From: Sulfobacillus thermosulfidooxidans
Lineage (GTDB): Bacteria > Bacillota > Sulfobacillia > Sulfobacillales > Sulfobacillaceae
Direction: 5' to 3'
DNA: 64,000 nt
Assembly: GCF_001280565.1 (NCBI RefSeq)
Contig: NZ_LGRO01000001.1
Span: 2,232,001 to 2,296,000 of the forward strand
Every line of letters starts with the position of its first letter. Within the stretch, counting starts at the first letter, position 1. Under the pieces are notes generated by a model. It ran no database searches. It was given only the letters and a program-made list of their open reading frames with translations, and was not told the DNA's origin. Position numbers and translations under genes: made by a program. Positions 43,436 through 55,260 of the stretch are shown here, piece after piece.

Positions 43436-43813
43436 CCTTTCTTATTCGTGAATTATTTCACTTATCATGCTACCACCTTATGACAGAGACCACAGAGGGC
43501 ATATGGTCCATAAATCAGGACCCAAAGGGCGAGAATTGCTATAAGTCTTATGGCCCCTGGGATATTGCTTCATGGCCAACAAGTTAGACAACTAAGCTCA
43601 ATGGCGACTGAAATATGGATCAGAAGAACGAAAGAGACTTGGCGAAAAAGCAGGTTATCTGTGTCGATTTCGTTTCTCATAAGAAGATCATTAAGTCGCG
43701 TAGAAAAGTTTAGAAAGAAGGGCCTCCAATATCGATGATTGAAATGGGACTATTATTAGTTCATAATGATAAAAAACTATAAAAACACAAGTGATGAAAT
43801 GAGGTCATTCTAT
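43436..43813. other. intergenic region upstream of the selenoprotein-type gene
   Basis: About 380 bp without a supported gene (a 62-codon frame at 43550-43738 has no SD or motif). It must contain promoters for both divergent genes; none was convincing by eye. Confidence 0.4.
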
Positions 43814-44605
43814 ATGACTAGTTCACTCATTCCGCCATCCTGGAATGCATCATATGAGCAGTGGAAACAAACACGTCTACCATCTTTGCTAGAAAAGGAC
43901 TGGAAGACGGCATTTAGTGATTACCCTTGGATTTCTTTTACCGATAGTCCTTTTATTGCCTTTTCTAAACCCCTCAATTTGTCTCGGATTGCTTTAATAA
44001 GTTCGGCAGGTGTGTCATTAACGACCCAGCCTCCTTATGATGCGGAGGATCCCTTTGGGGATCACAGTTTTCGGATCATTGACGCCCAGAGTCCTTTACC
44101 AAGCTGGCAAGTTCATCATGGGCATTATGATACGTCTTCGGCGCAAATTGATTACAATACCGTATTTCCCTTGGATATATTGCGGCAATTAGCTCACAAT
44201 GGAAATATTGGATCGCTTGCAAAAGAAAATTACACGTTCATGGGATATCAACCGGATCCCCGTTTGTTTTACGAAGACTCCGCTGGAAAGATATTAGAGG
44301 GATTGCGAGCGCAAGAAGTAGATGCGGTGCTGTTAATTCCTGGATGACCGGTATGTCATCAGTCCGTGGGACTGTTTGCCCGCTATTTAGAAAATGAAGG
44401 AATTGCCACCGTGGTCATGGGCGCTCTTAAACCCATGTTGGAAACCATCAAACCTCCTCGGACTTTATGGGTTCGGGCGACACTCGGAAAACTGGTGGGG
44501 AATCCCCACGACATTAACCAGCAAATGATTCGGGTTCAAAAGGCTCTTGACTTGTTAGAGACAGCTAACCAGGGTGGCGTGGTCGTTGCATTGTCCGAGA
44601 AGTGA
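43814..44605 (+). CDS. glycine reductase selenoprotein-B family protein, predicted selenoprotein (in-frame UGA = Sec)
   Basis: Reading through the single TGA at 44345-44347 gives a 263-residue protein. Before it: ALISSAGVSLTTQPPYDAED, HGHYDTSSAQIDYNTVFPLD, LAHNGNIGSLAKENYTFMGY and VDAVLLIPG; after it: PVCHQSVGLFARYLENEGI and a C-terminal domain ending GGVVVALSEK. These are the features of the GrdB/PrdB-like family (D-x-N-x-V-F-P, G-x-I-G, FMG), in which this site is a redox Cys or Sec in a (U/C)xxC motif. Here it is U-P-V-C. Both halves share one frame and are family-like on both sides, arguing against random decay. ATG 43814 has GAGG 10 nt upstream. Substrate unknown; probably a thiol/selenol reductase. 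A nonsense mutation of a Cys codon is the alternative. Confidence 0.75.
44345..44374 (+). promoter_or_regulatory. UGA codon with bacterial SECIS-like hairpin
   Basis: Eighteen nucleotides after the end of the UGA begins a GUG loop closed by a perfect 6-bp stem (CAGTCC, 44360-44365, with GGACTG, 44369-44374). Bacterial SECIS elements are short stems immediately 3' of UGA, with an apical loop about 16-37 nt away and a G among its first two bases; this one fits on all counts. Function inferred from structure and gene family. Confidence 0.6.
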
Positions 44606-44687: not shown

Positions 44688-45125
44688 ATGACCCGTCAAC
44701 ATGATACGATGCGCATTGGAGAACTCGCCAAAGTCGCCGGGATTACCCCAAAAACTCTTCGTTATTATGAGGACTTTGGTTTATTGCCGGCCAGTACCCG
44801 CAGTGAGTCAGGATACCGGTTATATTCGTGGAACGATTTGGATCGACTGCGGTTTATCCAAAAAGCCAAAACCGTCGGTTTTTCGTTGAGTGAGATTCGT
44901 TCAATTCTAGCCTTGCGCAATCATGGAGAAGTGCCCTGCGATCATGTTAAAGCGTTAATCAATCGGAAATTGGAGGAAATTAATTCTCAAATCCAAGCCC
45001 TGCGAGATTTAGAGATCGAATTACGCACTATGCAAAAAGAAGCTGACGCATTACCGCCGTGCGAAGCTTGCGTTTGTGAAATCATTGAGCATCATGACGC
45101 CATGAGCGGTAACGACATGCCTTGA
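44688..45125 (+). CDS. MerR-family heavy-metal-responsive regulator
   Basis: Activator that twists long-spacer promoters. The N-terminal HTH is canonical (MRIGELAKVAGITPKTLRYY, EDFGLLPASTRSESGYRLYS), followed by the dimer helix. Metal ligands are probably the Cys in VPCDHV and the C-terminal cluster PPCEACVCEIIEHH, a pattern closer to Zn/Cd/Hg sensors than to CueR. ATG 44688 follows AGAAGG. A MerR-type promoter stands before the HMA-protein/P-type ATPase operon 3 kb away, which transcribes toward it; that operon is the likely target. Confidence 0.9.
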   Translation: MTRQHDTMRIGELAKVAGITPKTLRYYEDFGLLPASTRSESGYRLYSWNDLDRLRFIQKAKTVGFSLSEIRSILALRNHGEVPCDHVKALINRKLEEINSQIQALRDLEIELRTMQKEADALPPCEACVCEIIEHHDAMSGNDMP

Positions 45126-54513: not shown

Positions 54514-55260
54514 GTGAATATTTATAGTGTTCGAATGCGAGCGACAGATGGGCAAGGACGCCATCTTTCGGGAATGGAGCGTTTAATCTTTGAAGAAGAC
54601 GTTTCCATGACGCTTCAAGCATTGTATCAACGGGCATGGCATTACGAACCCCATAACGTATACATCACTGTTGAGAAGATCGACCAGGAGATCACTGTGG
54701 TTCCCGTCCTGCGCATTCGAAGCGAGATCCATACGTCGTCTAGCAGATCTGGGGTACGAAACCAAGCACGAGAAATTTTGCTGGACGCGCATATTGAAAT
54801 GGATGTCATCGATTATGCTTTTTCTCTCCTAGACCAGGGGCCAGCCGCAGGTGGAGGGAATATGCGGGGAGCTGTCTTATTGACGAAGCGAAGCGGGCGG
54901 CGTTTAGAGCCCGACAAGGACCGGGGTGTCAGAACCTTGCGGGTAGACATTCACCCCGAGGACCGCGAACGTCTACATGTGGCCTTAGTTCAACAAGGAT
55001 TTCCTCATCCCCGAACTCAAGACGCTTTGATTTTAGCGACTAAGACCTTATGGGCCGGGGTGATTGCCGAATTAGGCTGGTCAGATGATCCGGATTATAC
55101 GACGGGTTTTGTGGCAACAAAGGGGACTTATTGGCGGTTCGAAGGAATCAAAGAAGCTGGCGTGAACGTAGGGGGACGCATTTATTTTGTGGAAGAAGAC
55201 GAGGATACGGCAGAATTAATCAAACGGCTTCAGCAAATTCCGATTTGGGTCACGGTTTGA
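54514..55260 (+). CDS. bioW: 6-carboxyhexanoate-CoA ligase (pimeloyl-CoA synthetase)
   Basis: Makes pimeloyl-CoA from free pimelate, CoA and ATP for BioF. 248 residues; YSVRMRATDGQGRHLSGMER at the start, RSGVRNQAREILLDA, GNMRGAVLLTKRSGRRLEP and DRGVRTLRVD are BioW signatures, including the nucleotide-handling Arg-rich segment. The GTG at 54514 is 7 nt after GAGGAG and just downstream of the bioF stop; an ATG at 54499 would lie within the SD. The presence of BioW means the cell needs a source of free pimelate. Confidence 0.92.
   Translation: MNIYSVRMRATDGQGRHLSGMERLIFEEDVSMTLQALYQRAWHYEPHNVYITVEKIDQEITVVPVLRIRSEIHTSSSRSGVRNQAREILLDAHIEMDVIDYAFSLLDQGPAAGGGNMRGAVLLTKRSGRRLEPDKDRGVRTLRVDIHPEDRERLHVALVQQGFPHPRTQDALILATKTLWAGVIAELGWSDDPDYTTGFVATKGTYWRFEGIKEAGVNVGGRIYFVEEDEDTAELIKRLQQIPIWVTV

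Follow-up and report, generated by a model that had tools for sequence, protein, structure and literature searches.

Glycine reductase and D-proline reductase are the closest described systems, in which a selenolate reacts with a carbonyl-activated amine to form a selenoether with cleavage of the C–N bond, and a thiol then resolves the intermediate (PMC10298544). Genes named after the proline enzyme recur in selenoprotein surveys: ‘proline reductase PrdB’ was the third most abundant selenoprotein family in the Sargasso data with 42 genes (PMC1088965), 235 Sec and 110 Cys forms of PrdB-type selenoproteins were reported from GOS (PMC2398784), and a 2006 paper lists a ‘proline reductase’ selenoprotein for both Anaeromyxobacter and Geobacter (PMC1794560). 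Regarding Sulfobacillus, Sec-containing formate dehydrogenases were found in every genome compared in a 2014 study (PMC4378227), and two papers on this genus in which selenocysteine appears mention no proline or glycine reductase. Here we describe a PrdB-like selenoprotein gene in a 64-kb stretch of the Sulfobacillus thermosulfidooxidans genome, which is hereafter called the window; all of its coordinates are positions within that stretch, and the genome itself is referred to as G000.

The gene occupies positions 43814–44605 on the plus strand (263 codons followed by a TGA stop), with a possible ribosome-binding site, GAGGT, read from the sequence at 43799–43803 (+), about 10 nt 5′ of the ATG. 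Its read-through translation contains exactly one internal stop, the TGA of codon 178 (44345–44347, +), which would place Sec178 in the surroundings LLIPG-U-PVCHQSVG, and the TGT codon at 44354–44356 (+) encodes Cys181, the putative resolving residue of U-x-x-C, which did not vary among the 17 members aligned, the Cys forms among them. The first-pass annotation had described two same-phase frames of one family parted by a single TGA at a (U/C)xxC redox site, and both points were borne out, as the read-through product matched TIGR04483 and PF07355 and the motif reads G-U-P-V-C-H-Q-S. When the window protein was compared with its homologue in G018, the sister genome, with which it shares 220 of 263 residues, dN and dS were 0.08 and 0.92 upstream of the TGA, and 0.15 and 0.88 downstream of it (dN/dS = 0.09 and 0.17, respectively), indicating purifying selection on both sides and, from the value on the downstream side, that the part beyond the TGA is retained as protein. 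Only one other TGA in the window parts two long same-phase frames (>150 and 80 codons), that at 55258–55260; since the second frame has its own start 7 nt later, this TGA has the appearance of a normal stop separating two neighbouring genes.

The earlier description of the protein as GrdB-like held at the level of the superfamily, the nearer relative being PrdB. Against PF07355 (GRDB) the read-through product scored 43 bits (4.7e-11; gathering cut-off, 22), whereas against TIGR01917 (GrdB) it reached 49.5 bits, below the cut-off of 602.2; GrdB shares Sec in UxxC as a distant superfamily member, but is ~430 aa long owing to an extra N-terminal part. TIGR04483 (PrdB), on the other hand, was matched at 2.8e-40, residues 47–260 aligning with model positions 20–230 of 238. 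Because the PrdB model has 238 positions, 263 aa is a normal length for a PrdB-type subunit, and the protein is not short as had been supposed. This best curated match, in the same length class, near end-to-end and with Sec in UxxC, together with the membership in the PF07355 superfamily, could be taken to mean an ordinary Stickland enzyme, i.e. PrdB of D-proline reductase proper (or GrdB), acting with a pyruvoyl subunit, but we consider this very improbable for the following reasons. The TIGR04483 score, 138.2 bits, lies below the curated cut-off of 300; the motif is GUPVCHQS and not the TAGUGTCHRS of PrdB; and the PrdB rows formed a clade of their own (support 100/99) with the window protein on a separate branch outside it, in a tree whose deeper branching is unresolved and some of whose rows are long. 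In addition, PF09338, the pyruvoyl GrdE/PrdA subunit, had no match in the window's own genome, and the search evidently works, since it gave a positive match in one of the 34 family genomes, G002. For PF04723 (GrdA) no match was obtained in the own genome, but none in any control genome either. The first-pass view that this is not a classical Stickland enzyme is thus supported by the missing PrdA/GrdE subunit. Among 11 other genomes carrying genes of the same kind, four were without PF09338 and the remainder had it on another contig or far off, where in several cases it adjoins a GrdB-length gene. As judged from these sequence comparisons, the protein very probably belongs to a stand-alone ‘UPxC’ subfamily of the PrdB/GrdB superfamily, one that is distinct from D-proline reductase PrdB. 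The GrdE-like genes of G002, the only ones in the family, are located at L047:2540-6100 (G002:C107) and G002:C20:2720-3982; a GrdB-type gene with the motif TSTUGTSTRCG adjoins one of them, which suggests a glycine-reductase-B-like module in this Sulfobacillus relative.

Among the 34 family genomes, 8 further intact homologous sequences were found in 6 other genomes (32–84% identity to the window protein), all of which have a TGA in the corresponding codon as their sole internal stop. The motifs at the site were GUPVCHQSVG or VUPICHQSVG and GUPMCHKSVG, with VUPECCRNVP in a divergent tandem paralogue, and the TGA was likewise located at the site in more distant Bacillota members (TUPLCNQSVG, GUPLCHQSVG, AUPICNQSVG, VUPICQQSGG and AUPVCHVSVG). 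The intact copies were thus free of any scatter of stops, and the column reads TGA in 9 of 9 intact family sequences, the window included, as well as in other families. Cys was observed in two alphaproteobacterial plasmid genes (NCPVCHQT and NCPICHQT), whose products, Roseomonas WP_207415257.1 and Haematobacter WP_035710215.1, are stand-alone full-length homologues annotated ‘glycine/sarcosine/betaine reductase selenoprotein B family protein’; they carry PN-C-P-[VI]-C-H-Q-T at the same position and differ from the window protein in having Cys in place of Sec, with 33–34% identity over the alignment. The spread of the subfamily outside Bacillota is based on these two plasmid records and the literature. 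Within the family the gene is patchy, being missing from most genomes, five SelB-bearing congeners among them, and no homologue was found in the viral contigs and phage genomes searched. In three relatives the gene has decayed, its frame being broken and various stops having appeared (G007:C181:11804-12016, G010:C300:5493-5920 and G020:C2:26800-27104), the last of which appears to be plasmid-borne (Sulfobacillus acidophilus DSM 10332 plasmid CP003180); these represent gene loss in other lineages.

Downstream of the TGA, the hairpin CAGTCC-GTG-GGACTG at 44360–44374 (+) forms a 6-bp stem with a G-first 3-nt loop beginning 18 nt after the UGA. Published criteria for bacterial SECIS elements are a spacing of 16–37 nt, a G in loop positions 1–2 and an energy threshold of −7.5 (PMC13188914). 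The geometry of the window hairpin (spacing 18, loop GUG) fits this model; its local energy of −7.4 misses the threshold by 0.1, and over the 37-nt downstream region another fold has the lower energy (−10.9). The hairpin alone is not significant, as 902 of 2000 synonymous recodings (45%) gave an equal or longer stem with a suitable G-loop. Across 17 sequences, however, 96.1% of the stem cells were paired and both sides had changed in 4 of the 6 pairs, giving the compensated variants CAGTCC/GGACTG, CAATCC/GGATTG, CGCGCC/GGCGTG and GTGTCT/GGACAC. None of 500 shuffles, which ignore relatedness, reached any of the SECIS measures, and slid stems, a control that corrects for relatedness, were far below in cells paired and covariation. 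Codon usage was also examined in 8 orthologues or close homologues, window included and Met/Trp left out: the only invariant residues with a frozen codon were the TGA, Ser184 (TCC), Gly186 (GGA), Leu187 (CTG) and one two-codon Glu, whereas the loop codon Val185 varied among GTG, GTA and GTC. The SECIS-like hairpin of the first-pass annotation therefore stands as to its stem, GUG loop and position, and gains covariation, although not as a significant feature of the window sequence alone; the evidence for a functional SECIS is decisive across the homologues, through conservation and covariation, and not from the single sequence. In G030, a tandem paralogue with the motif VUPECCRN (G030:C46:97053-97754; L036:1369-2319) lies upstream of the orthologue, and its hairpin is different, CGTGCC-CGTGTT-GGCACG, so that the duplicate has a SECIS of another design.

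The machinery for Sec decoding was complete in the own genome (3.83 Mb in 3 contigs, 99.98% complete). A tRNA-Sec with anticodon TCA (UCA) was found at 64.5 bits (family cut-off, 47), and SelA, SelB and SelD scored 557, 361 and 362 bits, respectively, each above its curated cut-off, so that the genes which the first-pass annotation had proposed to look for are all present. Host SelD itself contains a TGA in frame, within SGUGC, after which comes a similar hairpin with a G-first 3-nt loop, GGTCC-GGA-GGACC, indicating that recoding is used elsewhere in the same genome too. SelB with Sec-tRNA(UCA) would recognise the hairpin just 3′ of UGA178, and the ribosome would insert Sec to yield the 263-aa protein.

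If the TGA were instead a genuine stop, the product would be a 177-aa fragment, arising either from recent pseudogene formation or from a sequencing error in a Cys form. Such a reading could draw on the decayed copies in three relatives, the Cys forms of Roseomonas and Haematobacter and the patchy distribution of the gene, but it is hardly credible against the same TGA codon in every intact family sequence, the complete Sec machinery, the covarying SECIS with its frozen stem codons and the purifying selection on either side of the TGA. A sequencing error is ruled out because an error cannot recur in independent genomes, and the recent loss from a Cys form that had been offered as one option is rejected on the conserved TGA, the covarying SECIS and the selection on both sides. 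Comparative evidence thus makes it nearly certain that UGA178 is decoded as Sec. If so, a gene caller that stops at codon 177 misses the resolving Cys along with one third of the protein. Considered as a whole, the locus is best explained, with good though not complete confidence, as a working stand-alone UPxC selenoprotein gene for a reductase of redox or toxicant defence.

As to the reaction, the protein most likely serves redox or toxicant defence as a selenol reductase that depends on a dithiol, an assignment to which we give roughly even confidence. The Sec178 selenolate would attack an oxidised or electrophilic substrate, Cys181 would resolve the intermediate as a Sec178–Cys181 selenenylsulfide, and the enzyme would be restored by thioredoxin or another dithiol of the cell. 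With no pyruvoyl partner the protein cannot activate amines as PrdA/GrdE do, which makes a thiol-dependent reductase likelier than an amino-acid reductase. A structure predicted from an alignment of two sequences had a mean pLDDT of 42.5, too low for use, and a profile search of solved structures returned no relative, the single match being a designed protein (E 0.002); the proposed redox mechanism is drawn from the motif and from the chemistry of the family. His102, Asp113 and Arg216 are likewise invariant residues. Of the first-pass proposal of a Sec-containing reductase of new function, the Sec part is supported by comparison, and the new function is what we infer.

The surroundings of the gene bear on two other possible roles. 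The next gene on the same strand (44688–45125, +) encodes a MerR-family (ZntR/CueR/CadR-like) regulator, a possible regulatory neighbour, with PF13411/PF09278 over cut-off and best NCBIfam matches to ZntR, CueR, CadR and MerR that are all under the equivalog cut-offs; beyond it, a heavy-metal P-type ATPase and a CopZ-like protein are encoded on the opposite strand. In 3 of the 5 closest homologue loci (G003, G005 and G030), merA over its curated cut-off is located within ~5 kb. These neighbours would suit a metal- or organometal-specific selenoprotein, for instance in mercury handling, in which Sec-x-x-Cys binds or reduces a soft metal under the control of the adjacent MerR. We hold this to be unlikely: merA is not near the gene in G000 or its sister G018, where it is located elsewhere, and because these two nearest genomes do not show the association it is kept as a rival only. 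Metal-rich habitats and the many metal genes of the family also mean that proximity may be incidental, and neighbours differ between lineages, more distant members adjoining AhpD-, Prx- or deiodinase-like genes. In other lineages, an AhpD-like gene with CHYU or CQYU (C-x-Y-U) adjoins the UPxC gene in G223, G051 and G424, a Prx-like (AhpC-TSA_2) gene is directly upstream of the PrdB-like gene in G003 (L042:3617-4177, G003:C120, minus strand), G267 has a gene for a deiodinase-like SFTUPPF protein at ~2 kb and another UPxC gene at ~5 kb, and in G072 the gene for a DsbA-like protein with UPFC lies at a distance of ~1 kb. These nearby redox selenoproteins support a thiol-redox role over amino-acid fermentation. 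Somewhat less probable still than the metal-specific role is a C–X bond reductase, in which the selenolate displaces a leaving group from a carbon electrophile. The superfamily does break C–N bonds via selenoethers, as described above (PMC10298544), and the GrdB homologue FarB has been proposed to attack the C–F bond of monofluoroacetate (PMC10838667); FarB, however, keeps a GrdE-type partner, of which the own genome has none, and no dehalogenase or transport genes were recognised adjacent to the gene. The dithiol-dependent reductase accordingly stays our preferred candidate among the three.

With regard to the earlier surveys, the marine, Anaeromyxobacter and Geobacter ‘PrdB’ genes resemble the window gene in being PF07355-related UxxC selenoproteins, and are common in surface-ocean samples, in contrast to the acidic and metal-rich habitat here; judging from their published descriptions, they are probably of the same stand-alone kind. 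The window gene is a well-supported additional member of a kind already known. If correct, its description sets a recurrent stand-alone selenoprotein group apart from D-proline reductase, whose name the surveys give it, and poses a question for a selenoprotein family that ranks among the most common in the sea, namely what a PrdB-like protein reduces without a pyruvoyl subunit; a culturable acidophile would be a practical host for addressing it. We tentatively suggest that UPxC constitutes a separate selenoenzyme family, whose as yet undescribed reaction proceeds without a pyruvoyl partner, such as the MerR-regulated reductive detoxification of metal(loid)s or organic electrophiles in acidophiles, and that the marine ‘proline reductase’ genes belong to it and are misnamed.

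Two further observations concern the homologous loci. In G003, a MAG with an intact PrdB-like copy, SelB was not detectable and the SelA hit was negligible; it shares its genus with G004, and neither of the two shows SelB, SelA being absent or a negligible match. The contig may have been mis-binned, the MAG may have a gap, or the Sec genes may have been stranded after loss of the machinery. The intact UGA-containing PrdB-like and Prx-like genes of G003 share a 12-kb contig, and the latter has two in-frame TGAs (YUIPU), so that two selenoprotein genes lie side by side and have three Sec codons between them. The AhpD-like (carboxymuconolactone decarboxylase family) gene and the UPxC gene, for their part, form a recurrent two-selenoprotein pair, which was observed in 3 genomes of 2 families (L056, L058 and L079).
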